Part shown: positions 9,720 through 64,000 of the stretch, piece after piece | How the letters are laid out: every line of letters begins with the position of its first letter | How positions within the stretch are numbered: the first letter of the stretch is position 1 | NCBI GenBank assembly: GCA_907163375.1 | Contig: CAJQUW010003420.1 | Span: forward strand, 1 to 64,000 | Reading direction: 5' to 3' | DNA length: 64,000 bases | Source: Prostheceraeus crozeri | Lineage: Eukaryota > Platyhelminthes > Polycladida > Euryleptidae | Translations under genes and position numbers: made by a program | Notes under the pieces: generated by a model | What the model was told of the DNA's origin: nothing | Database searches by the model: none | Seen by the model: the letters and a program-made list of their open reading frames with translations, nothing else

Positions 9720-12700
9720 CGTTTGAAAATCTATCCAGAATTAATTCATAACAGAAATGCAACCTTCATAGATCAACAAAATAAATTTCCACAACCGCAC
9801 AAACGACTCAGCATAGTCAAATCAATCAATACCGACTTCGTCAACATTTTTTCGAATACCTCACTACTCTTCAACCACTCAAATCAATCATCTATGTTTC
9901 GAAAATATCCTTAATTTACAAAAATAGAAATGCAACTTTCATACATCAACAAAACAAATCTCCAACACCATACCAACGACTCAGCATAGTCAAATCAATC
10001 AATACCGACTTTGTCAACATCTTTTCGAATACCTCACTACTCTTCAACTACTCAAATCAATCATCTATGTTTCGAAAATATCCTTAATTTACAAAAATAG
10101 AAATGCAACCTTCATACATCAACAAAACAAATTTCCACAACTGCACAAACGACTCAGCATAGTCAAATCAATCAATACCGACTTCGTCAACATCATTTCG
10201 AATACCTCGCTACTCGTCAACTACTCAAATTAATCATCTATGTTTCGAAAATATCCTTAATTTACAAAAATAGAAATGCAACCTTCATACATCAACAAAA
10301 CAAATTTCCACAACTGCACAAACGACTCAGCATAGTCAAATCAATCAATACCGACTTTGTCAACAGTTTTTCGAATACCTCACTGCTCTTCAACTACTCA
10401 AATCAATCATCTATGTTTCGAAAATATCCTTAATTTACAAAAATAGAAATGCAACCTTCATACATCAACAAAATAAATTTCCACAACCGCACAAACGACT
10501 CAGCATAGTCAAATCAATCAATACCGACTTTGTCAACATTTTTTCGAATACCTCACTACTCTTCAACTACTCAAATCAATCATCTATGTTTCGAAAATAT
10601 CCTTAATTTACAAAAATAGAAATGCAACCTTCATACATCAACAAAACAAATTTCCACAAACGCACAAACGACTCAGGATAGTCAAATCAATCAATACCGA
10701 CTTCGTCAACATCTTTTCGAATACCTCACTGCTCTTCAACTACTCAAATCAATCATCTATGTTTCGAAAATATCCTTAATTTACAAAAATAGAAATGCAA
10801 CCTTCATACATCAACAAAACAAATTTCCACAACTGCACAAACGACTCAGCGTAGTCAAATCAATCAATACCGACTTTGTCAACATTTTTTCGAATACCTC
10901 ACTACTCTTCAACTACTCAAATCAATCATCTATGTTTCGAAAATATCCTTAATTTACAAAAATAGAAATGCAACCTTCATACATCAACAAAACAAATTTC
11001 CACAAACGCACAAACGACTCAGCATAGTCAAATCAATCAATACCGACTTCGTCAACATCTTTTCGAATACCTCACTACTCTTCAACTACTCAAATCAATC
11101 ATCTATGTTTCGAAAATATCCTTAATTTACAAAAATAGAAATGCAACCTTCATACATCAACAAAACAAATTTCCACAACTGCACAAACGACTCAGCATAG
11201 TCAAATCAATCAATACCGACTTTGTCAACATTTTTTCGAATACCTCACTACTCTTCAACCACTCAAATCAATCATCTATGTTTCGAAAATATCCTTAATT
11301 TACAAAAATAGAAATGCAACTTTCATACATCAACAAAACAAATTTCCACAAACGCACAAACGACTCAGCATAGTCAAATCAATCAATACCGACTTTGTCA
11401 ACATCTTTTCGAATACCTCACTACTCTTCAACTACTCAAATCAATCATCTATGTTTCGAAAATATCCTTAATTTACAAAAATAGAAATGCAACCTTCATA
11501 CATCAACAAAACAAATTTCCACAACTGCACAAACGACTCAGCATAGTCAAATCAATCAATACCGACTTTGTCAACATTTTTTCGAATACCTCACTACTCT
11601 TCAACTACTCAAATCAATCATCTATGTTTCGAAAATATCCTTAATTTACAAAAATAGAAATGCAAACTTCATACATCAACAAAACAAATTTCCACAACTG
11701 CACAAACGACTCAGCATAGTCAAATCAATCAATACCGACTTCGTCAACATCTTTTCGAATACCTCACTACTCTTCAACTACTCAAATTAATCATCTATGT
11801 TTCGAAAATATCCTTAATTTACAAAAATAGAAATGCAACCTTCATACATCAACAACATACCAACGACTCAGCATAGTCAAATCAATCAATACCGATTTTG
11901 TCAACATTTTTTCGAATACCTCACTACTCTTCAACTACTCAAATCAATCATCTATGTTTCGAAAATATCCTTAATTTACAAAAATAGAAATGCAACCTTC
12001 ATACATCAACAAAACAAATTTCCACAACAGCACAAACGACTCAGCATAGTCAAATCAATCAATACCGACTTTGTCAACATCTTTTCGAATACCTCACTAC
12101 TCTTCAACTACTCAAATCAATCATCTATGTTTCGAAAATATCCTTAATTTACAAAAATAGAAATGCAACCTTCATACATCAACAAAACAAATTTCCACAA
12201 CTGCACAAACGACTCAGCATAGTCAAATCAATCAATACCGACTTTGTCAACATTTTTTCGAATACCTCACTACTCTTCAACCACTCAAATCAATCATCTA
12301 TGTTTCGAAAATATCCTTAATTTACAAAAATAGAAATGCAACCTTCATACATCAACAAAACAAATTTCCACAACTGCACAAACGACTCAGCATAGTCAAA
12401 TCAATCAATACCGACTTTGTCAACATCTTTTCGAATACCTCACTACTCTTCAACTACTCAAATCAATCATCTATGTTTCGAAAATATCCTTAATTTACAA
12501 AAATAGAAATGCAACCTTCATACATCAACAAAACAAATTTCCACAACTGCACAAACGACTCAGCATAGTCAAATCAATCAATACCGATTTTGTCAACATT
12601 TTTTCGAATACCTCACTACTCTTCAACTACTCAAATCAATCATCTATGTTTCGAAAATATCCTTAATTTACAAAAATAGAAATGCAAACTTCATACATCA

Positions 12701-15700
12701 ACAAAACAAATTTCCACAACTGCACAAACGACTCATCATAGTCAAATCAATCAATACCGACTTCGTCAACATCTTTTCGAATACCTCACTACTCTTCAAC
12801 TATTCAATTTAATCATCTATGTTTCGAAAATATCCTTAATTTACAAAAATAGAAATGCAACCTTCATACATCAACAAAATAAATTTCCACAACCGTACAA
12901 ACGACTCATCATAGTCAAATCAATCAATACCGATTTTGTCAACATTTTTTCGAATACCTCACTACTCTTCAACTACTCAAATCAATCATCTATGTTTCGA
13001 AAATATCCTTAATTTACAAAAATAGAAATGCAACCTTCATACATCAACAAAACAAATTTCCACAAACGCACAAACGACTCAGCATAGTCAAATCAATCAA
13101 TACCGACTTTGTCAACATTTTTTCGAATACCTCACTACTCTTCAACCACTCAAATCAATCATCTATGTTTCGAAAATATCCTTAATTTACAAAAATAGAA
13201 ATGCAAACTTCATACATCAACAAAACAAATTTCCAACACCATACCAACGACTCAGCATAGTCAAATCAATCAATACCGACTTTGTCAACATTTTTTCGAA
13301 TACCTCACTACTCTTCAACTACTCAAATCAATCATCTATGTTTCGAAAATATCCTTAATTTACAAAAATAGAAATGCAACCTTCATACATCAACAAAACA
13401 AATCTCCAACACCATACAAACGACTCAGCATAGTCAAATCAATCAATACCGACTTTGTCAACATTTTTTCGAATACCTCACTACTCTTCAACTACTCAAA
13501 TCAATCATCTATGTTTCGAAAATATCCTTAATTTACAAAAATAGAAATGCAACCTTCATACATCAACAAAACAAATCTCCAACACCATACGAACGACTCA
13601 GCACAGTCAAATCAATCAATACCGACTTTGTCAACATTTTTTCGAATACCTCACTACTCTTCAACTACTCAAATCAATCATCTATGTTTCGAAAATATCC
13701 TTAATTTACAAAAATAGAAATGCAACCTTCATACATCAACAAAACAAATTTCCACAACTCCACAAACGACTCAGCATAGTCAAATCAATCAATACCGATT
13801 TTGTCAACATTTTTTCGAATACCTCACTACTCTTCAACTACTCAAATCAATCATCTATGTTTCGAAAATATCCTTAATTTACAAAAATAGAAATGCAAAC
13901 TTCATACATCAACAAAACAAATTTCCACAACTGCACAAACGATTCAGCATAGTCAAATCAATCAATACCGACTTCGTCAACATCTTTTCGAATACCTCAC
14001 TACTCTTCAACTACTCAAATTAATCATCTATGTTTCGAAAATATCCTTAATTTACAAAAATAGAAATGCAACCTTCATACATCAACAAAACAAATTTCCA
14101 CAACTTCACAAACGACTCAGCATAGTCAAATCAATCAATACCGACTTTGTCAACATTTTTTCGAATACCTCACTACTCTTCAACTACTCAAATCAATCAT
14201 CTATGTTTCGAAAATATCCTTAATTTACAAAAATAGAAATGCAACCTTCATACATCAACAAAACAAATTTCCACAACTGCACAAACGACTCAGCATAGTC
14301 AAATCAATCAATACCGACTTTGTCAACATTTTTTCGAATACCTCACTACTCTTCAACTACTCAAATCAATCATCTATGTTTCGAAAATATCCTTAATTTA
14401 CAAAAATAGAAATGCAACCTTCATAGATCAACAAAACAAATCTCCACAACCGCACCAACGACTCAGCATAGTCAAATCAATCAATACCGACTTTGTCAAC
14501 ATTTTTTCGAATACCTCACTACTCTTCAACTACTCAAATCAATCATCTATGTTTCGAAAATATCCTTAATTTACAAAAATAGAAATGCAACCTTCATACA
14601 TCAACAAAACAAATCTCCAACACCATACCAACGACTCAGCATAGTCAAATCAATCAATACCGACTTTGTCAACATTTTTTCGAATACCTCACTACTCTTC
14701 AACTACTCAAATCAATCATCTATGTTTCGAAAATATCCTTAATTTACAAAAATAGAAATGCAACCTTCATACATCAACAAAACAAATTTCCACAAACGCA
14801 CAAACGACTCAGCACAGTCAAATCAATCAATACCGACTTTGTCAACATCTTTTCGAATACCTCACTACTCTTCAACTACTCAAATCAATCATCTATGTTT
14901 CGAAAATATCCTTAATTTACAAAAATAGAAATGCAACCTTCATACATCAACAAAACAAATTTCCACAACTCCACAAACGACTCAGCATAGTCAAATCAAT
15001 CAATACCGACTTTGTCAACATTTTTTCGAATACCTCACTACTCTTCAACTACTCAAATCAATCATCTATGTTTCGAAAATATCCTTAATTTACAAAAATA
15101 GAAATGCAACCTTCATACATCAACAAAACAAATTTCCACAACTGCACAAACGACTCAGCATAGTCAAATCAATCAATACCGACTTCGTCAACATCTTTTC
15201 GAATACCTCACTACTCTTCAACTACTCAAATTAATCATCTATGTTTCGAAAATATCCTTAATTTACAAAAATAGAAATGCAACCTTCATACATCAACAAA
15301 ACAAATCTCCAACACCATACCAACGACTCAGCATAGTCAAATCAATCAATACCGACTTTGTCAACATTTTTTCGAATACCTCACTACTCTTCAACTACTC
15401 AAATCAATCATCTATGTTTCGAAAATATCCTTAATTTACAAAAATAGAAATGGAACCTTCATACATCAACAAAACAAATTTCCACAAACGCACAAACGAC
15501 TCAGCATAGTCAAATCAATCAATACCGACTTTGTCAACATTTTTTCGAATACCTCACTACTCTTCAACTACTCAAATCAATCATCTATGTTTCGAAAATA
15601 TCCTTAATTTACAAAAATAGAAATGCAAACTTCATACATCAACAAAACAAATCTCCAACACCATACCAACGACTCAGCATAGTCAAATCAATCAATACCG

Positions 15701-15949
15701 ACTTTGTCAACATTTTTTCGAATACCTCACTACTCTTCAACTACTCAAATCAATCATCTATGTTTCGAAAATATCCTTAATTTACAAAAATAGAAATGCA
15801 ACCTTCATACATCAACAAAACAAATTTCCACAAACGCACAAACGACTCAGCATAGTCAAATCAATCAATACCGACTTTGTCAACATTTTTTCGAATACCT
15901 CACTACTCTTCAACTACTCAAATTAATCATTTATGTTTCGAAAATATCA
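9720..15949 (+). repeat. Satellite array, 173-bp monomer, about 36 copies
   Basis: Head-to-tail monomers. The marker ATGCAACCTTCATACATCAA starts at 9757, 9930, 10103, 10276, 10449 and onward to 15796. The distance 9757-15796 equals 35 periods of 173 bp less one 16-bp deletion (the monomer starting 11833). The first unit (9720-9756) is diverged and the last stops mid-monomer at 15949. Monomers vary mainly in a block after CAAAACAAAT, in three main types (CCACAACTGCAC, CCACAAACGCAC, CCAACACCATAC). Each monomer holds two copies of TCAAATCAATCA. The frames of 63 and 104 codons in it are by-products of the repeat. Confidence 0.97.
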
Positions 15950-47321: not shown

Positions 47322-48359
47322 CTAGCACAGAAAAACAACGCATGTAGCAAATTCAATTTTAATAGAAGCTCTAGCTCCAATACATTCAGTAATCCGAGAT
47401 GGCATGGATTCACAAAGTTTCTGAATGAAGGATGCTTCAAGGAGAAGCCACTGCTCTGTCAGTCCTTCAGAGAGAATCTTCAGGGACACTGGTGGAAGTG
47501 AATAGCGGTCTCTCACTCGCCGCCCAAGCTCGTCCCATACTTGTTCAATGGGTGACAAGTCAGGTGAGCGCGCAGGCCAGTCAAAGGTTTGAATGCTCAA
47601 TCTCCTAACAGTGGCAATGACAGCCGAGCGATGTAATCTTGCGTTGTCGTCTGGGAAGACGAGATCCTCCACCCTGACCTTTGGGGAAACAACAGGAAGC
47701 ACAATTTCATTGAGATACCTCTCTCCAGTCAACGTGTCTTTGATGATGACTGCTGTCGTTCGTCCGCCATGCTAAATGCCACCCCACAGCATAACACTTC
47801 CACCACCATATCTGTCGTGTTCTTTAATACAGCATGGGGCAAAGCGTTCACCAGGAAGACGATGCACTCTGACACGAACGTCATTGAAATCCAGAGTGAA
47901 TCTCGATTCATCGGTCCATGAGACTTTCTGCCAGTGATGGTCATTCCATGAGCGATGGGCATCACAACAGGCAACTCGTCTTCTGCTGTGCTCAAAATTC
48001 AATGGAATTAGGACAGCTGGTCGTCGCGATTGAATTCCAGCTTCTCGCAATCTTCGGTAAGCCGTTCGAACGCTACAGTCTATATTTGAGGCACTCTTCC
48101 AGTGTACGACTAGCTTTGGGACTGACACAAATCTATTCCTCTTTGCAGCTAAAACTAGACGTGCGTCTGTCCTTCCTGCAGACTTTCTTGGTCGACCAGA
48201 TCCCTTCTTCTTTTTGACATCTCCTTCTGCTTTCCATCGACACCACCACCTCCAAACAACGACTCTCGATAGTTGCAGCTCTTCGACAACACTCACACAA
48301 CTTCTACCACAACGAATCATTCCAATAGCCATACCTCTGGTAAACTGATCGTCTGCCAC
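47322..48359 (-). pseudogene. Tc1-family transposase with a single in-frame stop
   Basis: A DDE transposase of the Tc1 family reads from ATG at 48359 to 47322 (345 codons, normal length) and is broken only by one TAG at 47772-47774. The N-terminal half has a helix-turn-helix DNA-binding region and the AT-hook-like GSGRPRK. The first catalytic Asp is in SWTDESRFTLD. After the stop come FPDDNARLHRS (second Asp) and SPDLSPIEQVWD (Glu). It is a different subfamily from Tc1-A and Tc1-B, whose spacing and motifs differ. No terminal repeats were delimited. The enzyme is probably dead, but only recently. Confidence 0.9.
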
Positions 48360-49157: not shown

Positions 49158-50090
49158 ATGACTTCAAGTGGGAAATTTTATTCAGGGGAAGAGAAGAGCT
49201 GGATTATTGAGCAAGCAAAAGAACAAGCTCACATAATTGAAAATCAAGAGAATAATATCAACATAAATAGAGAGAAGAATGAGATGCGGCAAGAGATTAC
49301 TAAGCAAATTAATTCAAAGTTCAATACAAACCGATGCGTGAAGTCAGTTATTAATATATATCGGAAAATGAAAATGAGAGCCAAAACTGAGATCAGCGAG
49401 CATAAGCGCCACAGGCAAGGGACGGGTGGAGGACCATCTAGACAAATATCTGAGGTCGCCGAGTCTTTTTCTGATATTCTTCCTCCAATTACAACTGAAG
49501 GAATAGACAATCCTTATGATGATGACACTATCCCAGAATCCACATCAACACCGAATCCTACAAAGAATGAAGCCACGACTATTTCCAAGAAGAGCGCAGT
49601 CCGGAGCAGAAGAAGTAAGTCCTGCAAAAATACTTTCATAACTGAGAAAGAACACTGTCTTTTACATTTCAGAGAATGCCGATGCCTTTATGCAGAGAGA
49701 GCATCCTAAAAGGATGGAAGTTTTGGAAGCTCAACTGAAGTGTGAGAGAACTCGAGAGGCATACTACGCAGCAAAACTGAAACGTAAGATGATTCGAGCA
49801 CAACTTACTATAAATATGCACATTTATCTCTTTTCATCCAAATCAAGTCTGGAGGGCAAGAATGCATCTACTGAAGCGGACTCCTTCCTAACAAGAAGTC
49901 ACATCGTACTACATGACCTAGAAACGTAAGCTTCATTTAAGTCATTTATAGACCATTAGTTTTCTTCATGCGTTTAATGTGAAGATCTTGAGATAGGTCT
50001 AGATGTATAATTTTTAATTAGAATTTGCGATATTTAGGCTGTAATTAATTATCACATCTTTCTTTTTCCAGGTCCAACAATTACGGATAA
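49158..50090 (+). CDS. Harbinger Myb/SANT-like DNA-binding protein (three exons)
   Basis: The Harbinger partner protein, which in this superfamily binds transposon ends and carries the transposase into the nucleus. The N-terminal 95 residues match the Myb/SANT-like (NAIF1/MSANTD type) domain: FYSGEEKSWIIEQAKEQ, a run ending INIYRKMKMRAKTEISEHKR, then TGGGPS. An acidic, Pro/Ser/Thr-rich linker follows, then a basic stretch, and a helical C-terminus (MEVLEAQLKCERTREAYYA). I infer intron 1 at 49615-49672 (GTAAGT...TTTCAG, 58 bp), which joins the basic stretch in frame to KNADAFMQREH. Intron 2 is probably 49926-50071 (GTAAGC...TTCCAG), with a short third exon ending at 50090. Without intron 2 the frame would stop at 49929. 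No stop or frameshift is seen, so the gene may be intact. Confidence 0.82.
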
Positions 50091-50623: not shown

Positions 50624-52255
50624 CAGTCCGTTTCATAAAAAGTGGATCATCCTAAAATTTGACTGAATAAAACATAAGTATGATACAGAAAGCATTTTTC
50701 ATGTTATTTCATGTCCCTAATATATTTAAATGTCCTTATATAATCTGATAAGCTATGATACAGTAACGGTTCTTAAGAAGCTAATATTTTGTGGTCCTAC
50801 CCTTATTGTCAATGACATTACCAATTCGTCTAGGCATTGATTCGATGATATCGTTGTTTTTGACTTATCTAACTTTCTCCACTCTCTTTTTAACAGTGAC
50901 GTAAGTTGTGATACGCCATCTGTAGGTAGCAGTGAACGACGAACGTTACGTTTTAGAATACTCCATACATTTTCTGCGGGATTCAGATCAGGAGAACGAG
51001 CTGGCCAAGATAATGTCCTAAGCCCTAATTGAGACTTGCATAAGTTGACTCTACTACTCCTGTGACACGTAGCATTATCATCTATAAATAACCAAGTCGA
51101 TGGATCACCAAGTTGATCTGTCATTTGGCCAATATTCATTCGTAAAACATTCACATAGCGTTCAGAATTCATGGTTCCTTGCTGTATGTGAAGTTCAGAG
51201 CGGCCATTGGTCCAAATGCCAGCCCAAATCAGTAGAGTCGCACCACCTTGTACCCGGGGACGATGTAAATGTCTCGGAATTTCCTGATCAGATTTTATCC
51301 ATAATCTCAATCGACCATCACTATCCTTCAGACGGACTGATGCCTCATCAGACCAGATTGCCCATCTGAGACGTCCTTTTGTATGCTGATCTGATAATTC
51401 GATCTGAGAGGGCCTCTTACAGCTCTTGAAATTCGACTCAATAAGTCTTCTACGAATAGCGGACTTCGAAATAGACGAGACTAGTGCAGCCATCTCAGTT
51501 AACGAGAGACTTGGATCAACTTTAACAAATCTCAAAATTAGGCGGTCTCTACGTTTGGATGTTTTGCGTGGACGGCCAAAGCCCTCTTTACGACAGAGTC
51601 GAAAATCATCATTATGCCATCGATGCACATTTGTGTAAGGGACTTGTTTGTAGTCGACTTGCAAGTCGCTTGCTTGTAGCTCGCAAAGAAAACCCTAGTT
51701 TTAGCAAGGCTGACACTTTGCCTTTTGTGAATGCGATCTCGTTATTGTTCATTTGTGCTTTGTATTGTTTTCAACCTGTAAGAGATAGATTTCTAGCTGA
51801 AAGCAATCAGGAGTGCTGCCAACACCACCGCAACGAAGTCAAGAAGCTATGGAACATGAAGTCCAGTTAATCACATGTAGCAGTTACATTATTGTTGATG
51901 AATAATGGTGCTATACTGGCTCTGATTGACCGATTTTCTTTATTTTTGTTTTGCTTGATAGCTTTTGGCTTGTAGAACAACATATTACATAACAAAGGAA
52001 ACAAATGTAATTTTATAAGAGTGAGGTATGATTTTGTGTAACATTGCTAAATGAAGATCAAATTATCTACTACTTTTTTATCTATAACAGGAAAACAACT
52101 CAATATTCATGCTTGAAATTTCCAACAATGATATTAGTATGCACAACTGACATATCCTCCAAATTTCAGAGAAATACGTTCAAGTTTGGCGGAGTTAGAC
52201 AAAGTTGAAGTTAAGGCGATGTTTAAGAGTGATCCATTTTTTATGAAACAATCTG
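50624..52255 (-). mobile_element. Tc1-B, complete Tc1-like transposon (1632 bp)
   Basis: Terminal repeats begin CAGTCCGTTTCATAAAAAG on the left and, reverse-complemented, CAGATTGTTTCATAAAAAA on the right. They are flanked by TA at 50622-50623 and 52256-52257. It is inserted in the HARBI1 gene of the Harbinger element and is the full-length reference for Tc1-A, including the site where the 26-kb element landed in Tc1-A. Confidence 0.95.
50753..51752 (-). pseudogene. Tc1-B transposase, one N-terminal frameshift
   Basis: A DD34E transposase. A 303-codon frame (50753-51664) covers most of the protein: helix-turn-helix and GFGRPRKTSKRR motif, first Asp in IWSDEASVRL, second Asp in FIDDNATCHRSS, Glu in SPDLNPAENVWSILK with 34 residues between the last two. 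The natural start is ATG at 51752 (MNNNEIAFTKGKVSALLKLG), but that frame closes after about 46 codons. A frameshift near 51650 separates the two, so the copy is probably inactive. Confidence 0.88.
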
Positions 52256-53322
52256 TAGTTGCTAGCTTGTTCCTTCCTTCAACACAAGCAAAATCTTGCT
52301 TGATCACGCCAAAAGTTCTCTCAATAATCAACCGAGATCGAACAAAGTGGTAATTGTAGCTTTCCTGAGCACGATTTTGCGGATTTGCAACAAGTGTAAG
52401 GAGAAATTGAGATAGAGGGTAGCCACTGTCCCCAATCAGAATGAAGTTCTTTAAATCACAATTCTCCATTCTTTCGCGCAGATTTGAATTGCGAAATATT
52501 CTAGCATCGTGAGTTGCGCCTGGCCAACGTGCCACAACATTTTCAATAATGCCATCTGCAGTGCAAACTACCTGAACGTTTATGGAAAGGAAATTTTTCC
52601 TGTTGTAGAAAGATGCAGCAACATCTCGCGGAGGCACTACACGAATATGTGTGCAATCAATTGCACCAATTATGTTGTTGATTCTCATCTTTTCACGAAA
52701 CTTATCACTAATATTGCGCTTTCCATGAATATTGGATGGAAAATATACGAATTGCTTATGACCACTAGCAATAGCTACCAATATGTCACGGATAATGCGC
52801 GAAACCACTGGTTGAGAAATGTTGTGCAAATCGGCATGGATCAGTTGGATTGTGCCTGTCGCATAGTACCTTAGGGCGGTTGCGAACTTTAAAACTGGTG
52901 GCAATGTCCCTTTGCTAATGTCTGGCAGAATTATTTCCAAGACATGTAGGAAAAGGTCCTTCTTTAGCCTGTATCTTTCGATGAACTCATTTTCTGATAA
53001 GTCTTCAACAGGATTTGATCTGTCTCTAACGCCTCGATGCGCAAGGCGTTCGAAGTGATACTCGGGATCAACGACATCCATTCCGCACAAACAAGAGCTA
53101 CGAATGCTGATTTATTCATCTACCTGATGCTACTGTATCATGCTTTTGCTTGGATGGCATGGGTCATCACGCATGCCACTTCACAATAGCAATCTCGACA
53201 CCCTCGCCAATGGAATAGGCAATGGTAGCCAGTGGAATGTGATCGCTGGAATAACATTTCAGATGGCATGGGGGCCCTTGCCACTGGCAGCCGTCGCTGG
53301 AATGCGGTTTAGTATAGCGCTC

Positions 53323-55199: not shown

Positions 55200-55255
55200 A
55201 GTGTGACATCCGGCGCGACGCTTCGCTTCGCTTCGCTTGCGCCGGATGTCACACT
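55200..55255. repeat. Terminal hairpin at the Polinton end
   Basis: A perfect 17-bp stem, AGTGTGACATCCGGCGC (55200-55216), pairs with 55239-55255. The 22-nt loop is made of CTTCG/GCTTC repeats. It sits exactly at the inferred left terminus. Confidence 0.88.
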
Positions 55256-55289
55256 TTTGCGGGTTTTTTTTCAAAAATTTCAAAAATTT

Positions 55290-55575
55290 AGGTGGACTTC
55301 AAATTTCACGTGGCAGAAGGCCGAAGGGCGAAAATTTAGGTAGTGACAAATTTTCAAAAAAAACAAAAATTCAAAAATTTAGGCGGTCTCAAAATATCAC
55401 GTAATCGAAAATTTAGGCGGTTTCAAAATAACACGTGGACGAAAATTTAGGCGGTCTTAAAATATCACGTAATCTAAAAAATATCACGTGGTCGAAAAAT
55501 ATCACGTAGCCGAAGGCCGAAAATGTAGGCAGATGAAAATTTAGGTAGACCAAAAAATATCACGTAGTCCTAATA
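55290..55575 (+). repeat. Subterminal tandem repeats of the Polinton
   Basis: Degenerate units of about 42 bp alternate AAAATTTAGGCGGTC with AAAATATCACGTAATC, at least five times, between the hairpin and the first gene. They are probably part of the long TIR. Confidence 0.85.
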
Positions 55576-55611
55576 TACCAGAAGATTGTATTCAAAATAT
55601 TTCTTTAAAAA

Positions 55612-56472
55612 ATGGAAACCTCAACGGGGGAAGCCTCAGAAATGGAAGGAATAAAAGTGGAAGAAACCGCAAGAATATATCCTTCGTTATCATATGAACG
55701 TAGTTCTACTTTAATGAACATTCAAAAGATAAACATCGAAAAGATGAATAAAGAAAAACATAAAGACAGAGTTAGGTATATGAAAGATAAAGAATCTCAA
55801 TTATTATTAAGATTAGAGCATTATAAAAAATTGAGAAAGTGATGGTCTAAAGTTAAGAATGTAACACAAGGAATTGGCATATTCTTAACAATAAGTTTAG
55901 GTGCTTTAACAATTGTTATATCTTCAGGTGTTTTAGTAATTCCAGTAGTTGCTACAGCTTTAACAGGTACGGGTGTTTTTGCAACTTCACTTGTTACAAT
56001 GTTAGATAAATCTTTAATAACTAAGAAACGAAAATCATTAAAAACTAAGCATTTACATATTAAAGAAGACTATGATAAACTACATTACTACTTTCAAAGA
56101 GTATGTGATGATAATGTTATTACGTTAGATGAGATTGAAAAATTTGATCAAATAGCTAATGAAGTAAATCAAATATCATTTCAATTACAGTCAGAAAAAG
56201 TTGATGATAAGAATAAACGGGATGGCAAAATTTGGAGTGATGGTAAAATTTCCAATGAAGAAAATGACAAAATTTTTTTTAGAAGAGCTAAAAACTTTAA
56301 GCGAAAATTTAAGCAAAACTTTATTAAACAAAACTTTATTAGACAAAACTTAAAACGAGAAAACTTTAAACGAAAAGATGTCAGACAACAAAGCAATAAA
56401 AAAATAATTTGTTCAGTAAAATGTTTTTGCTGTATTCCAATGTTACCACAAAATTTAAATATTATATTTTAA
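55612..56472 (+). pseudogene. Polinton two-helix membrane-type protein, one in-frame stop
   Basis: Residues 1-76 are hydrophilic and helical. A TGA at 55840-55842 interrupts. The same frame continues with two hydrophobic, Gly/Ala/Val-rich segments (about 55873-55990) and then a charged helical region (KHLHIKEDYDKLHYYF, then VITLDEIEKF) that ends at 56472. This two-transmembrane plus helical-tail layout is a family common in Polintons of invertebrates and is thought to be structural or membrane-active; its function is not established. The C-terminus has lysine/asparagine-rich repeats of NFI(K/R)Q type (about 56290-56380) encoded by an imperfect AAACTTTATTA repeat. The second half has no start before the hydrophobic part, so this is one broken gene, not two. 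Confidence 0.72.
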
Positions 56473-56474
56473 AA

Positions 56475-57302
56475 ATGGATAAAATTAGCACTGATAATTT
56501 TAAAAGAATAAAACAATTAGAAGAGTTAATAAAACAAAGAAATATTATGAAAGAAAATCATCTTCAACATAGAATGATAAAAGCTGGTATTCAATCTGAT
56601 ATGTTTGAAAAAATGCAGCAAACCGAACAAGTAAAAACTGATTTTGAAAAAACTATGAAACCATTTAAAACTCTTGAAAAGGAACTTACAAATAATGATG
56701 AACAAATTGATATAACAGATCCAGAGAACAAAAAATTTATATTAGATGACTATGGATTACTAGAATCAAACATTAATAAGAAATTACCAAAATCTATGCA
56801 ATTTGAACATTCTATCTCATTTATAGATGGAAAAACAATACCTAGATTTTATCTCGGACAAAAAGAAATATTTCCAAAACCTTTTCGAGATTTAATTTTT
56901 TCACCAGATAAATATGCTTTTAATTTAGATAAAAATTTTGTTGATCTTTTAAGAGGAGCAGATTTAAATAATTATGCTGTAGAAGATCTCATAAAGTATA
57001 AAGCTATGTTAGATAGAGTTGGTGCAGTAAAATCTCTTAGACGTTATAAACAATTAGAAAATTTATTATCAACGGGAGTTAAAGTAGGAAAAGGTTTTAA
57101 AACTGAAACAACTGTATTCTTACCAGATGATCCACAAGAACTACTAAATAAATTAAAAATTAAATATTTTAATATCTGCAATAAAAGAGGACATAATTCT
57201 AGTTTCAATGAAATTCATGCTATATTGAAAAGACTGTTAGAAAAGAAGATTCTAAATGAAGAGGATTATAAAAGTGTAGCTGAAATATGTTGTTGTTTTT
57301 AA
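56475..57302 (+). CDS. Conserved Polinton protein of unknown function (275 aa)
   Basis: An intact frame from ATG 56475, two bases after the preceding stop and within the TTTTAAAAATG context shared by the genes of this element. The N-terminal third is a basic helical or coiled-coil region (KRIKQLEELIKQRN). The middle contains SISFIDGKTIPRFYLG and PFRDLIFSPDKYAF. The end has FLPDDPQELLNKLKIK followed by RGHNSSFNEIHAILKRLLEKK. The C-terminal pattern (a DDP/LL block, then GHN-S-NEI and a helix) is what I associate with an uncharacterised protein often found in Polintons. No enzymatic motif is seen. It may be a virion or core protein; that is inference. Confidence 0.7.
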   Translation: MDKISTDNFKRIKQLEELIKQRNIMKENHLQHRMIKAGIQSDMFEKMQQTEQVKTDFEKTMKPFKTLEKELTNNDEQIDITDPENKKFILDDYGLLESNINKKLPKSMQFEHSISFIDGKTIPRFYLGQKEIFPKPFRDLIFSPDKYAFNLDKNFVDLLRGADLNNYAVEDLIKYKAMLDRVGAVKSLRRYKQLENLLSTGVKVGKGFKTETTVFLPDDPQELLNKLKIKYFNICNKRGHNSSFNEIHAILKRLLEKKILNEEDYKSVAEICCCF

Positions 57303-57619
57303 TTTTTTTATAAAAAAATATTTATTCAAAATTTTAACTAAAAAATGTCTTCGAGAGAATTATCATCAGCAGATTTAGACAAAATTAATAATCATTTAGA
57401 AAATTTGACAGAGATTTTGGGTTCATCAAAATTTAGTACGACGTTAAAAATTATAACAACTACTTCATCACACACTTGTAATTTAGAACCCATTCTACAT
57501 TTGGAACAAAATAAAAATTATCAAATTGCATTGACTAGTTTCTCCACATTTAACACTATTCAAAACGTTATCAAAGATGTGAATGATCAATTTTGATATT
57601 ATTGCCAATATATTGATAT

Positions 57620-58636
57620 ATGCCTTTCGCTGTAATTTTTATGGATTATATAGAGAATACGGCGCTAACAGCCTTACGGAATAATAACATTAGGCCTCAG
57701 TTTTATAGACGATATATCGATGATATCGTGATGGGCCCATTTCCGAACGAAGCAAAAATATTCGATAAAATTATTAAGGCCTTCAACTCGGTGACCGAAT
57801 CTATAAATTTCACTTTAGAAGTACCAAATAAATCATTGAACTTTTTAGATGTAACCATTTGGATTGAAAATAATGTCATAAATTACAAGCATTATACTAA
57901 AGAAATTAGTTCAGATAATTGCTTAAATAAAAATAGCTGGGTGCCAAACCACATTAAAACGAATTTTGTGATAAATTCAATCAGCACTGCAAACGAGAGA
58001 TGTAATTTAGCATCTGACCAGATAGAAGCAACAGACAAAGTAAAGAAAAAATTAAAAGGAAATGGCTACAGTGATAAAGATTTGAACTGCAGTCGCAAAA
58101 ATAGAAGAAAAAAGCGCAATCATGATAAAAAGCGAGTTTGTAATCTACAGATGCCTTTCGTTAGTGATAGTCTAAATAGAAAAATAAACAGTTTAGTTCA
58201 AAAATATGACCTTGATATAAATGTAGTAAATAATAGTAGTAAAAAATTAAAAGATATTTTTCAGATAAAGAAAAAGAGGAACAAGCACGAAAATTGTGAT
58301 GTGTGTGCCAGTTTGCCGATGGAATTTGATTGCAGTGTGAGCAATGTTGTCTATGAATTCGTTTGTAAAACGTGTGATGGTAATTATATAGGCAAGACTT
58401 GTAGGAACTTTAGAGCTCGATACTTAGAGCACAACCGCAGCATTAGGCATAAGGATGATAGGAGTGCGCTGAGCGTCCATGTTCGTGAATGTGAGTGTGA
58501 TGGTATTGAAGATTTTGATGTCAATATTCTTGAATGCGTGAAGAGACCGCTTGATATTGCGTTGTTAGAAGCTCGTTGGATTAAGCGTAGAAGACCGGTG
58601 TTGAATCGATGTGATGAGCTGTCTGAATGGTATTAA
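57620..58636 (+). CDS. Penelope RT C-terminal part with GIY-YIG endonuclease (338 aa)
   Basis: An uninterrupted frame, lacking the N-terminal RT because of truncation. Residues 1-130 carry RT motif C (FYRRYIDDIVMG) and the following LNFLDVTIW block. A basic linker (KNRRKKRNHDKKR) follows. The last 100 residues are a GIY-YIG nuclease: NVVYEFVCKTCDGNYIGKT (VVY/YIG strands), RARYLEHN (Arg helix) and the Glu in ALLEARWIKRR. Cysteines at CDVC and CKTC form the zinc-like cluster seen before this domain in Penelope proteins. In full-length elements these domains copy RNA and nick the target. This fragment cannot transpose alone. The first Met is not a natural start. Confidence 0.93.
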   Translation: MPFAVIFMDYIENTALTALRNNNIRPQFYRRYIDDIVMGPFPNEAKIFDKIIKAFNSVTESINFTLEVPNKSLNFLDVTIWIENNVINYKHYTKEISSDNCLNKNSWVPNHIKTNFVINSISTANERCNLASDQIEATDKVKKKLKGNGYSDKDLNCSRKNRRKKRNHDKKRVCNLQMPFVSDSLNRKINSLVQKYDLDINVVNNSSKKLKDIFQIKKKRNKHENCDVCASLPMEFDCSVSNVVYEFVCKTCDGNYIGKTCRNFRARYLEHNRSIRHKDDRSALSVHVRECECDGIEDFDVNILECVKRPLDIALLEARWIKRRRPVLNRCDELSEWY

Positions 58637-58699
58637 ATGGTCACACCGCATAGATGTCTGAAGTATATAAAATCACTTGTAACTGCAGTTGATGCCAAA

Positions 58700-58737
58700 A
58701 CTCGTTGATAAAGGGTCGGGACCCGAAACGTCCGAGT
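58700..58737 (+). ncRNA. Hammerhead-ribozyme-like motif in PLE-2 3' end
   Basis: Stem I ACTCG (58700-58704) pairs with CGAGT (58733-58737). The core reads TTGATAA in place of CTGATGA. Stem II is GGGTC/GACCC, followed by GAAA (58725-58728), a minimal stem III, and cleavage triplet GTC (58730-58732). It lies 64 bp after the stop codon, where Penelope-like elements are known to carry hammerheads. The two core changes (positions 3 and 8) are at bases that pair with each other in active hammerheads. Confidence 0.6.
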
Positions 58738-59374
58738 AGAAAACACACGTTCTTTTTATTCAATTTATTCAATTTTACTTATCGGCAAAAACTAAAGGGA
58801 GTGATAACCGGATTTTATTGTACATAATTTTGATATTCTACTGATAAAGGCAAAACATGGAAAATACTAACTTTTCTTCCTGGTTCTTACGAAGTTTAAT
58901 CAATATCAAATGAAATTAAGAGATATTTAGTTATACCATTTAAAGATAAGAAACAATTACATTTTGCAGTTGAACCGGCAGTTAATACATTTTCTCTTAC
59001 TTTAGACGAAAATCATCAAGTTGATTTTAATCATGATAGATCATTGTCAAAGCTATTAGGATTTAATAAACAAACCTATAGTCAAGGTTATCATTTAGGT
59101 GAGAAGATTCCAAAAATAACTGAAATAAATTCAATTGTTGTACATTGTGACATTATTGAAGGAGGATATATAAATGGTAAATTGTCAAATTTAATATTCA
59201 GTTTTCCAGCTTTTACTGTACCCATTGGTTATAGACTAAATGTAATTCCACAAACATTAATATATTTCCCTATTACAAGAAAAACTATTAACAACATTAA
59301 CATAAGAATCACTGATGAAAAAGGACAAGAAATAAATTTTGGAGGTGAAGAGATTATGATAGATCTTTTGGTTC

Positions 59375-59415
59375 GGGAGGTATAAACTCCCGTTCGAGAG
59401 GTATAAACTCCCACG
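59375..59415. terminator. Paired hairpins at the end of the capsid-like gene
   Basis: GGGAG(GTATAAA)CTCCC at 59375-59391 and a near copy about 20 bp on (GAG...CTC). The stop codon is in the first loop. They may act in 3' end formation; this is inferred from position. Confidence 0.4.
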
Positions 59416-59481
59416 CGAAGCTAGAGAAGTTTAATTTTCTTCTTCTTCTTTTAAAATAAAAATAAAATTTTTTATTAAAAA

Positions 59482-60199
59482 ATGAGTGAAGTGCCCCATT
59501 AAATAAAAAAAAACTCAAATTTAATCATCATCCAAATTTATCTAATAAAGTTTTGTCAGTTATTTGTGGAAGATCAGGATGTGGGAGTTTTAAACGACTC
59601 CAAATTTTTTGGATTATAACAATCTTATAATTTATACAACAACAGCAGAACAACCCGTCTATCAGTTTTTAAAATATGGATTTGAAAATAATCTTAAAAA
59701 AACAGCAATTGCTTCATTATTCAAAGAATATGAAAATTCTGAATATGAAGAAGAAATAAGTTCGTGGTGTGAAGAAGCAGCAAAAAATAATCAGTTAGTA
59801 GAATCCAATAAAAATAAGCATATAAAGATACAATTAATAGATGATAGTGGTAATATGAAAGATCCTAGTAAACTAGATAAAACAATGAAACATTGTGTAA
59901 TTTTTGATGATTGTGATAATGATAGAAATCAGTCAGTTCAGAGAAATTATTTCACAAGAGGTAGACATAATAACTGTAGTGTATTTTATTTAACACAAAG
60001 TATGTATTCATTAGACGGAAGTGTTATTAGAAAGAATGCAAATATATTTATACTATTTGAAATAAATGCAAGAAACTTAAGTGATTTGTTAAGAGATTTA
60101 TGTGTAAGAAATAAAGATGAATTTAAAAAATCGTGTAACAATGCTTGGTCAAAAGATTATGGCTTCATTACAATTAATATTGATAAAAAAAATTCATGA
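59482..60199 (+). pseudogene. Polinton packaging ATPase (FtsK/A32-like), broken at the P-loop
   Basis: Genome-packaging ATPase of the FtsK-HerA type. From ATG 59482 the frame closes after six codons. The P-loop region (VICGRSGCG, near 59559-59585) is in a different frame, and another shift follows just before LDYNNLIIYTTTAEQPVYQF (from about 59609). From there the frame is open to 60199: Walker B in HCVIFDDC (59891-59914), then the arginine-finger/sensor block FTRGRHNNCSVFYLTQSMY. Known relatives are about 230-250 residues, matching 59482-60199 in length. Order and motifs are clear; the enzyme is dead here because the Walker A motif is frame-broken. Confidence 0.88.
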
Positions 60200-60325
60200 T
60201 AGAGTTATAGATGATTTGTTCTCTGACTAAGTTTCGCCCCGACTGAAAATCGATAGAAAATATTTTTGGGGAGTGACCGAATATTTTTTTCTTATAAATC
60301 TCTTGTTAATAAAAATAAAAAAAAT

Positions 60326-60627
60326 ATGTTGGATGCTTACAAGATAGAACATGTACCAGTTTTAAAAGATTATCGTCATCCTACAAATCCTGTAAATTCG
60401 AAGAAAGAAGTTAGATTTTATTATCATCATAAATACGTAGCGCTCGTTACAGATTATAAAACAAAACATGGTATTAAACCGTGTGTTAAAACAAAAGACT
60501 TTCCACTTTGTTTAAGAAGTTTCCGAGTATTTTTGGCGTATAATAATTTATGGTGGTTGGTTAAGAAAGTTTAACAACACATGAATTAGAAACATTACAT
60601 CAATTACATATTCCTGTGTATATGTAA
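60326..60627 (+). pseudogene. Small Polinton protein, one frameshift, function unknown
   Basis: ATG 60326 follows the A-rich start context. The frame is basic and aromatic (RFYYHHKYVALVTDYKTKHG, then SFRVFLAYNNLWWLVKK) and hits a stop at about 60573. A one-base shift gives LTTHELETLHQLHIPVYM to a stop at 60627, so about 100 residues are likely. No catalytic triad of the adenain-type protease is seen. I do not recognise it. Confidence 0.5.
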
Positions 60628-62007
60628 AAACGGAACCGAGGTTCTATGTAAAAATTCATTTTTTCTTTTAAAAAATATGAATCGTGAAATGTCTCTCGGA
60701 CAAACGTCTAGGATTGATGAATTAATCAAGAAACAAACTGCTGAGTTTGATGCACAAATTAAACATAGCAAACGTAGTAGACGTAATAAAAAACAGAAAC
60801 GTACTAGGCGTAGTATTAGACGTAATATTAAAAAACAGGAAAGTGGAACAAAAGAAATATTAGAAACTCCTATTACTGATATCTTTTTTGATGATAGAAT
60901 TAAGGATGAACTTGGTGATGATTTATGTAATTTATTTAATCCAAATGAAATTAAATATGAAAATGTATCTTTTATTAATGTAGTAAATGATATGCGGAAA
61001 CTTTTAGCAAATGGTAAAATTATTAATTTACTTGGAAAAGTTGTTAAAGATCAGGAAAATATAATTCAACATTTTTACGTAACCTTCTATAATAAAAATT
61101 CATTTGAAATATGGTTTTCGAATCTGGATGAGAAATCCGATGCTAACGAATGGATTTTTACAGGTAATATTAAATATGAAGATTTTGGAATGAAGTTAGT
61201 ACAAAGATCGCATAGAGGGGCAGGGATTAATATGAAATATAGAATCAAAAAATATTTCGGTGAATATTGTTATATTCCTTCTGAAGATTTTTGTTTTATT
61301 AAATGTTATAATGTTTTACGAGGTTTTAATGAAGAACAAGGAGAAATGATGAAAGAAATGTTTAATAATTTTTTATATAAAGAGAAAGCCACATCTAGAA
61401 CAGGAGTAATGTCAAACTGCAAATTTTCTCAATTCAACAAATATTTTGGAGAATGTGTTCAATATTATAGTCCTGCCAATCGTCATTTAAATCCTAGAGG
61501 AATTGAAACGTTTCATAATTATGTTTATTACAATTATTTTCACGAAGGTTCAACAATTGGTCACTATTGTTTAATTAATAAATCTCACAAATTAAAAGCT
61601 ATTAGAGAAATTGAAAATAATTTCAAACCCATATATAAAACAGTTACTGATGAAAATCTAACAACGCGTCCATATAAAATCATAACAAAGAACAAAATTG
61701 ACTATGGTTCAACATATATTTGGGATCTCGAAACTTTTCCTGATCCTAACTGTTCAACAGCTCATCCTATTCCTTATGCTGTAGGAGCTATTAATTTTAA
61801 TAAATTTATATGTTGCTTACCGAAACAAAGATTGAAAGAATTAGAAACACGTTTGTTAAGTGATATGATTAAAATTAAACGAATAAAAGATGAAGATAAA
61901 ATTAAAAGACTTAAAAAACAGATTAATGAGTATAATAATGTAACTGAATTAGAATATAATAAACTTCAAAATTGTGTGAAAATATTTACGAGAACTGAGG
62001 ATGATGA

Positions 62008-62047
62008 ATGTCCGATCGGGGGAAACCCAGAGGACGTATGTCCGATC
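62008..62047 (+). repeat. GC-rich insertion in PolB bounded by ATGTCCGATC
   Basis: The 10-mer ATGTCCGATC occurs at 62008-62017 and 62038-62047, enclosing a GC-rich 20-bp core in a very AT-rich gene. It adds about ten codons in frame (CPIGGNPEDVCPI). Confidence 0.6.
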
Positions 62048-62760
62048 CATCAATTTTTTAAAACTCTTGGAAAATTTAATTATTCGAGAGTAACTTTAAT
62101 AGCTCACAATTCATCAGGTTTTGATTCCTATTTTCCGATAAAAGCTAATTTTAAATTATCTAAACCACCTCTTAACACTTCAAGAGGAATATTGACTGCT
62201 TCATTACAAAATCCTTATACAATTGAATGTGTTAGTAGATACATTCAAAAATCTTTTAGATTTAAAAACAATATGAAAAAAGATTCACCTTCAGGTAAAT
62301 TAGCACTTCAAACTATTATAATGAAATGTAGTTATCAACATGTAAAAACAAGTCTTTCTAAATGGTGTGAGAATTTTAAAATTCCTACGAATGTGTGTAA
62401 ATTAAATTATGAAATTGGAGACATAACACATGAAAATTGTAAAGAAAAAGAAAATGAATGGAGACCATATTTAGTTAACGATATTCTTTCTTTAGCTTTT
62501 TGTATCTACAAATATAATAATGTTATGCAAGATTTAGTTGGTGAAGATATAACTACTAATTTGACATCATCTGCTTTAACATTTAACGGTTGGATGAAAA
62601 GCGTACAAAATGACAATATAAATATTCATTCTCATATAGATTTATGGGCTAGAAATTATATTAGAAAATCTGTTAAAGGTGGAAGAGTTTCAGCAAATAT
62701 AAGAAAATACATATCGCCATTTTGTAGCATCTTGTTACCAATATTAAAACAGTATTTACC

Positions 62761-62820
62761 TGGTCGCTACGCTGGGGGGGCTTTGTCCCCTGGTCGCTAC
62801 GCTGGGGGGACTTTGTCCCT
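62761..62820 (+). repeat. Tandem 30-bp GC-rich repeat in PolB
   Basis: Two units (62761-62790, 62791-62820) starting TGGTCGCTACGCTGGGGGG. Each contains a GGGGAC-TTT-GTCCCC type palindrome or a near copy. They encode PGRYAGGALS and a variant in frame, just before motif A, in a spacer where family members vary in length. Confidence 0.8.
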
Positions 62821-63717
62821 TGGAAGTAATTTAATAGATTTAATGAAACAGTATCGAGATTTAGGAGATACAACTGAAATTTGTAAGAAAATTTTAAATC
62901 AACTACTTGAACAAAAAAATGAATTTCTAATGGCTTTTGATGCAACATCTTTATATCCATCAGCTATGTATGATGAAAATTCAGAATATCCTAAAGCTGA
63001 ATCAGCTAGAAAATTTCGTCAAGAAGAAGAACGAGAAATAGTATATAAATTTAATACTCAAACATTTAGACCTAAAACTGGAATATTTACAGTTGTGTTT
63101 CAATATCCCAATGATATGTTTTTTCAACCAGTTCCTATAAAAGATGAAGTTAATAATCAAAATAATAATTCTCATGTAAAAGTAATCAGGTTTAGAAATG
63201 GTATATGTTATGATGTATTAACTTCTGTAGACATGCAAGAAATTGTTAGATGCGGGGGGAAATCTTACATATTACTGATGGTATAATTTATGAAAAAAAT
63301 TATCAAGTTTCATCATTTCGAAATTATATTGAAAAACTTTTTAATTTGAGAAAAAGATATAAAACAGAAGGAAATACTGTAGGTGATGAGTTAATTAAAT
63401 TATTGATGAATTCGCTATATGGCAAAACTGTGCAAAAAGATATAACCACTAAATATCATTTATGGAATGAGAATACATTGAGAAAAAATTTCACTCAAGA
63501 AGTAAAAGATTATGAAAAATTAAATGATGAACAATATTTAGCGAAAGTAGAAATGGAAGATGATGAATTTCTTAAAACTAATATTGTAAAAGATGGGAAG
63601 ACGTCATTCATGCCATCACACTTAGGTTCTTTCATTCTTTCTCACTCTAGAAGAATCATGAATAACTTTATTTTAGAAATTAATGGTTTCAACGAAAAAT
63701 ACATTCATTATACAGAT

Positions 63718-64000
63718 TCAGTAACAGCTGACACGCCTGTAATATTGAGAAAGAATAATTTATTATTTATTTCTAGAATAGATAGTATTGTAAACAACTA
63801 TAAAATTAATCCGTTTGAAATTAATGGTGATATGAAAGAAATTTCATTTGTTGATAATTTAGAAATTTCTACTCATAATGGATGGAGTAAAGTAAAAAAA
63901 GTTATTAGACATTTTACAAATAAAAGTATTTATAGAATAAGAACAAAAATGGGAATAGTAGATGTTACTGAAGATCATTCATTGTTAGATGAAACAGGTA
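63718..64000 (+). other. Intein N-terminal (Hint) part inside PolB motif C, incomplete
   Basis: Directly after IHYTD the protein reads SVTADTPVILRKNN, an intein block A with Ser as first residue, then about 55 residues, then IRTKMGIVDVTEDHSLLDE, a block B with the conserved T-x-x-H. The frame is open to the window end. The insertion splits YTD/TDS, the same place used by one class of known inteins in archaeal and large-DNA-virus PolB (established knowledge, the pol-c site). Inteins cut themselves out of the translated protein and join the flanks. The C-terminal blocks F/G and any homing endonuclease are outside the window. Confidence 0.88.

Follow-up and report, generated by a model that had tools for sequence, protein, structure and literature searches.

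A complete LAGLIDADG intein at motif C of a Polinton-type DNA polymerase in an animal genome

The window analysed here, a stretch of 64,000 nucleotides that forms the first 64000 bases of its contig (assembly of 2,048,925,868 bases), ends within a reading frame in which a DNA polymerase B (PolB) is interrupted, and the question is what interrupts it and how the insert came to be there. In the frame 63250-63999 (+), the polymerase motif B, NSLYGK, is followed by YTD at 63709-63717, and from 63718 the frame continues with SVTADTPV, with VTEDHSL about 80 residues further on. The original prediction took these two motifs for blocks A and B of an intein. This was confirmed by the NCBIfam model intein_Nterm (TIGR01445), which matched residues 2-90 of the 94 residues in the window at E 1.5e-8 and 35.5 bits, above its curated cut-off of 24.5. 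The window thus holds the first 94 of the 350 residues of an intein (63718-64000, + strand) with Ser1, block A and block B, and the remainder, with the LAGLIDADG part and the VKN|TDS junction, lies on the same contig past 64000. The outcome of the suggested search with Hint and intein profiles was mixed: TIGR01445 was above its cut-off, but Pfam Intein_splicing stayed below, both for the part in the window and for the whole intein (28.7 bits, with a cut-off of 35.8).

A profile of 34 other inteins, to which neither the window nor the protein P0116 contributed, picked this frame at E 3.9e-26 among the 1131 real segments of the window; the next real segment reached 0.41 and the best of the 22620 shuffled segments (20 x 1131) reached 1.1. 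An alignment profile recovered the two TFIIB mini-inteins (E 4.5e-9 and 2.5e-8) and PI-PkoII (E 0.0016). With phmmer, the PDB sequences were matched weakly at most: the best E was 0.2 for the 94 residues and 0.0016 for the whole intein. The structure model of the 94 residues (mean pLDDT 84.7) indicates that the N-terminal part of the intein has the Hint fold; when it was compared with the PDB by Foldseek, the 14 best matches were inteins or intein halves, NeqN being such a half, and E was 0.001 or below in two of them. An Rfam search of the 64-kb window gave no match.

Past position 64000 the frame runs on, and the window's own copy of the intein comprises 350 residues from Ser1 to VKN, is stop-free, and is followed by TDSIYISNELFNK, its C-extein starting with TDSIYIS. 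The C-terminal blocks F and G read QYVYDIETEDAAF...VKN|T, with a terminal Asn and Thr at position +1. The C-terminal blocks and C-extein, whose absence downstream would have refuted the original prediction, are present just past the window, and the proposed insertion between the Asp of YTD and TDS is read directly in VKN|TDSIYIS. Blocks F and G, the terminal Asn, LAGLIDADG motifs and the TDS of the C-extein were found as anticipated, but the expected terminal HN was not, as the penultimate residue is Lys and His is absent. The usual penultimate residue of inteins is His. The Pfam model LAGLIDADG_3 (PF14528) matched the whole intein in two stretches at E 2.3e-7, above the curated cut-off, and TIGR01445 was above its curated cut-off on the complete intein too; two LAGLIDADG-like stretches, EGFFLGDGS and YAADGSKK, were recognised by eye. 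A complete, nuclease-bearing intein between YTD and TDS, at motif C of a Polinton PolB, is hereby confirmed. An insert of intein size was absent from all 124 database proteins aligned over the insertion site, and among 186 proteins the intein profile gave convincing matches only to P0001, P0002, P0116, P0126 and P0127. The intein is therefore an in-frame insertion in a protein whose homologues are without it.

The interrupted polymerase belongs to a Polinton-type element, the left part of which occupies 55200-64000 (+) and which extends past the window. Its left end was placed at 55200, at a perfect 17-bp inverted repeat (55200-55216 with 55239-55255), and the GC content is 0.284 in 55200-64000 versus 0.372 in the flank 16001-55199. 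Polintons begin with AG. All features of the element lie on the + strand. A putative minor capsid protein is represented by an interrupted N-terminal piece (57345-57596, an ORF with no convincing family match) and a C-terminal piece (58900-59385, a stop-to-stop ORF with no family match); we assume this identity from likeness to similar Polinton proteins. The ORF at 57620-58636, which matches Pfam GIY-YIG at E 6.2e-7, above the cut-off, probably represents the terminal part of an RT-bearing, Penelope-like retroelement that has inserted here and interrupts the putative capsid gene. The packaging ATPase (59490-60199) is split into two frames, a P-loop-like piece and then a VIFDD piece, and was assigned from its ORFs and a weak match to the PHROG terminase large subunit (E 2.4e-4 on 59594-60196), with no Pfam match above the cut-off.

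The polymerase gene, pPolB, is also in two pieces. The first open piece (60677-63286, 869 aa; PHROG 1907 DNA polymerase, E 1.7e-14) presumably runs from the exonuclease part to motif A, and the second, in another frame (63250-63717; Pfam DNA_pol_B_2, E 1.8e-13), runs from motif B to the YTD of motif C and constitutes the N-extein. In comparison to P0003, a PolB from a JGI metagenome, the first piece is 95% identical over residues 330-869, and the second is identical at 151 of 155 positions, in line with the proposed Polinton type of the polymerase. A 30-bp stretch of PolB is doubled at 62759-62818, where the matching peptide is single in P0003. With both the ATPase and PolB in two frames, this copy of the element is decayed. 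It fits a Polinton by its PolB and its packaging ATPase, the match of the latter being weak; no integrase or major capsid protein was matched among the ORFs scanned in the window, which holds only the left end of an element that runs past it. Because of this kinship with Polintons, the polymerase is likely to be protein-primed. To the left of the element there are transposase ORFs (DDE_Tnp_4; HTH_Tnp_Tc3_2/DDE_3), presumably of Harbinger and Tc1/mariner, and a Myb/SANT-like ORF (52134-53090, 47322-48359, 50753-51664 and 49158-49709), and a 173-bp satellite of 35.9 copies with a GC skew near -0.6 over 6 kb occupies 9753-15948.

The host is an animal, as had been claimed, because the same 2.05-Gb assembly contains Wnt genes (30 matches above the cut-off, versus none in any of the 14 control genomes). 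Wnt is specific to metazoans. Among the matches listed, drawn from 815 first-look candidates, the start of the intein was found at no fewer than 150 places in this genome with 90-100% identity; by reading, three of the 150 show a stop, and seven are surrounded by an open frame of at least 1500 aa, which is enough length for PolB together with the intein. The best 40 of 9385 first-look candidates for the PolB P0003 were 99-100% identical to it, and 37 of these 40 were stop-free. Such numbers and identities point to a large and young burst of Polintons in this genome. As P0003 matches genome copies at 100% (rounded), the metagenome from which it came probably contained DNA of the same species.

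We read 66 occupied copies, all of which have Polinton PolB flanks around the intein, and in 36 of them the distance from extein to extein is exactly 1050 bp. Forty-five copies align over all 350 residues (36 stop-free, 9 with a stop), and the other 21 have indels or truncations. In the full-length alignments YTD|S is present in 45/45, so Ser1 is kept throughout, whereas TEDH (the TxxH of block B), VKN|TDSIY and the ADG of the second LAGLIDADG motif are each found in 44 and the GDGS of the first in 43. The same junction is present in P0116, which comes from a separate assembly, perhaps of the same species; it is not counted as a second species, since it falls inside the spread of the genome's own copies. 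Low extein identities of L123 and L125 (N-extein) and of L126 (C-extein) proved to be frame artefacts, the DNA being 97% or more identical. L119 may be a rearranged or recombinant copy, with 70.8% DNA identity to the window in the N-extein, 98.7% in the C-extein and 95.6% in the intein.

Copies without the intein exist in the same genome. In all 24 full-length PolB copies taken from the best 40 P0003 matches, the distance between the flanks was 0 bp; the P0003 search lists unbroken matches, and these copies, being empty by the way in which they were found, indicate existence and not frequency. In both the N- and the C-extein trees, from which 5 of the 66 occupied copies were omitted (L108, L121, L124, L137 and L140), the 24 form one clade with a single change of state, so on their own they are also compatible with one gain or one loss, and we rejected the idea that they alone prove repeated gain. 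With the window's N-extein as the query, the best 150 of 4523 candidates were scored, and at least 33 of these places adjoin a listed intein. We read 16 junctions near the top of this list, at 99% extein identity and adjoining no listed intein: 14 were empty, reading YTDTDS without any scar, and two were occupied, which in a chosen sample again speaks for existence and not for proportion. Occupied and empty PolB copies therefore coexist in one genome at 99% extein identity.

The history of the intein can be judged from three copies of a second Polinton subfamily (L072, L128 and L129), in which DNA identity to the window is 88.0-89.3% in the N-extein and 95.5-95.7% in the intein. These copies were aligned by codons with 10 main copies, and the exteins of L128 were excluded from the rates because its frames are broken. 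Median dS of the N-extein, intein and C-extein was 0.384, 0.074 and 0.256 for L072, and 0.334, 0.051 and 0.235 for L129, so that in the two usable copies the intein is about 3.5 to 6.5 times less diverged at synonymous sites than the exteins. Among the 10 main copies, compared in 45 pairs, the corresponding medians were 0.024, 0.037 and 0.040, with values up to 0.063, 0.085 and 0.284; the intein therefore does not evolve slowly as a rule but is young in one of the subfamilies. If the intein had long been passed down vertically within this Polinton family, with the empty copies as precise losses and no recent sideways movement, the single clade of the 24 P0003-type copies in both extein trees and the grouping of the three second-subfamily inteins in the intein tree would be as expected. 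The DNA identities and dS values between the subfamilies, however, strongly disfavour this course of events, the scar-free YTDTDS of the 14 empty copies close to the window's extein also counts against it, and we consider it improbable. Since the exteins are far more diverged than the intein, the intein has moved sideways between the subfamilies; homing, or another form of gene conversion, explains its low divergence and descent alone does not, and of these homing would be our choice. Against this movement it counts that L072, L128 and L129 are a clade in the N-extein tree which the C-extein tree does not recover, and that some main copies are also strongly diverged in the C-extein (dS up to 0.284). 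Nor was a clear co-conversion tract found beside the insertion site, where the identity between L072 and the empty copies is also high.

A more serious objection is that the intein may be a dead passenger, which neither splices nor homes at present and has been amplified only through amplification of the Polinton. In 30 of the 66 occupied copies the intein is damaged, be it by a stop, an indel or a truncation; its penultimate residue is Lys, and dN/dS in the 36 open copies is 0.67 (0.61 in the splicing part, 0.69 in the nuclease part). In 100 codons of each extein the ratio is 0.34 (N-extein, 28 copies) and 0.27 (C-extein, 27 copies), and in empty copies 1.36 (N-extein, with very few changes) and 0.09 (C-extein). 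As the value for the intein is above those of its neighbouring exteins, the constraint on it is weak and weaker than on the polymerase; this is compatible with a selfish passenger with turnover, and also with a dying one. On the other hand, 36 of the 66 copies are full-length and stop-free, no fewer than 43 of the 45 full-length alignments retain the catalytic residues, seven of the 150 places are embedded in a frame that stays open for at least 1500 aa, and a polymerase with unspliced sequence left in motif C should not be functional, so we regard a dead passenger as unlikely, though less so than purely vertical descent. Two further explanations have very little to recommend them. Relatives of the intein do occur in viral contigs, as they would if the locus were an assembly error or giant-virus contamination, but at least 150 places on many contigs, the Polinton PolB sequence on either side in the 66 copies that were read and the P0116 junction from a separate assembly (perhaps of the same species) make this highly improbable. 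Another Hint domain, of the Hedgehog or bacterial intein-like kind, fused to PolB would belong to the same fold family. That possibility is just as slight, given the in-frame insertion with both exteins present, the terminal Asn with Thr+1, the LAGLIDADG nuclease, and an insertion point already known for inteins (excerpt of PMC6316209).

Our main reading, to which we give a probability of roughly 0.85, is that the locus carries a complete LAGLIDADG intein at motif C of a protein-primed PolB in a highly multiplied animal Polinton, and that this intein would splice, cut and home. That it works like the homing inteins of PolB motif C is well supported by what is reported above, whereas splicing and homing in the present day, and the cutting by the nuclease, are inferred. 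The decay of the intein in 30/66 copies, its weak constraint, the penultimate Lys and the broken PolB frame of the window count against this reading. After translation, the intein would excise itself with the help of Ser1, the Thr and His of block B, the terminal Asn and Thr+1, and YTD would be rejoined to TDS. The endonuclease would cut intein-free PolB genes at the insertion point, and repair would copy the intein in. The intein would further be copied as Polintons replicate and integrate, and would move sideways between Polinton copies; as such it would be a parasite of a parasite. Proviral genes of an animal genome harbour the intein here at no fewer than 150 places, and the occupied and empty copies side by side in one genome provide a natural test of homing in animals.

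Where the intein came from can be approached through its relatives. A scan of IMG/VR gave 52 loci, of which, by reading, 15 have both YGD|S and N|TDS and the other 37 are without one or both; the better-matching YGD|S loci (L001-L015) are 36-48% identical to the window's intein, which places them among its best-matching kin outside this animal. Seven of the seven proteins scanned from the 52 loci were of the DNA_pol_B type, and the neighbours of L002 and L005 (asparagine synthase; kinase and glycosyltransferase) are compatible with large eukaryotic viruses. Among the inteins measured, eight of 222-256 aa had no LAGLIDADG-like motif in a pattern search, whereas five of six of 315-382 aa had one. 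The nuclease part of the window's intein is similar to that of L015 (34%, E 2e-23) and L010 (29%, E 1e-20), and to P0127 (42% over 57 aa, E 1e-12). At L046, a viral PolB intein at YGD^TDS is only 170 aa long. In other viral polymerase-like proteins (L011, L014, L016-L024, L027, L029, L031-L036 and L038), related inteins follow 'VGD', with no NTDS junction read. When IMG/VR was scanned with P0001, P0003 or P0187 as a single query, or with the PolB alignment A2, no relative was recovered; two scans of prokaryote genomes likewise gave none, which implies no close prokaryotic source at that sensitivity, and tblastn against phages gave six records, with a best E of 2e-3 over one third of the query.

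In trees, the window's intein groups with P0126 when only the first part is used (90/81) and with P0127 at full length (94/88); the forks that join it to outside inteins have moderate support and give no direction. An exchange of inteins with other DNA viruses, as originally suggested, is therefore supported by IMG/VR contigs in which a PolB intein occupies exactly this point, but the data provide neither a date nor a direction for it. It is possible, and we put it forward tentatively as somewhat short of an even chance, that an intein of the giant-virus type entered an animal Polinton, reached hundreds of germline copies and is still, or was until lately, spread between subfamilies by its endonuclease. 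If this were true, Polintons would be a bridge on which inteins cross between DNA viruses and the genomes of animals. The insertion point, common to this intein and to those of viral PolB, provides a marker with which gene exchange between Polintons and large DNA viruses can be followed.

The original prediction had also known of no intein described in a metazoan Polinton or adintovirus PolB. In the titles and abstract openings of the open-licence papers listed we found no description of an intein in an animal Polinton, which is no proof of novelty. For homing endonuclease domains in Polinton pPolBs, a study by Jeong (2023) is reportedly cited, the title of which is said to name nematodes. As excerpted, a 2024 preprint (PMC11071308) describes diverse homing endonuclease domains in the pPolBs of Polintons and, with reference to Jeong 2023, suggests that inteins have invaded them, which calls for caution about novelty. 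According to a 2018 survey, metazoan genomes are without inteins (PMC5784728), and GIY-YIG and HNH endonuclease genes are described for polinton-like viruses of protists (PMC12220804).

Compared with known systems, the intein is akin to the PolB motif C inteins (YxD^TDS), with which it shares the insertion point. According to excerpts of the papers concerned, phycodnavirus inteins are flanked by YGD-TDS, and those of mimiviruses are too (PMC6316209), the same point as that of the window (also PMC5371798 and PMC5871332). The IMG/VR PolB loci resemble the window's intein in their Ser start, the TDS that follows, the matching blocks A, B, F and G and, in some, LAGLIDADG-like motifs; they differ in that their host is a DNA_pol_B-type polymerase (7/7), whereas here it is a Polinton-type PolB in an animal genome and in many copies. 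P0127 shares 44% identity with the full intein as well as the EGFFLGDGS motif, but it is a fragment that ends after 163 aa, and P0126 shares 31% identity with the full intein, but its own intein of 222 aa is too short for a nuclease. The homing endonuclease domains of Polinton pPolBs, as far as the excerpted preprint goes (PMC11071308), resemble the case described here in that a nuclease is inserted in the polymerase of an element of this type.
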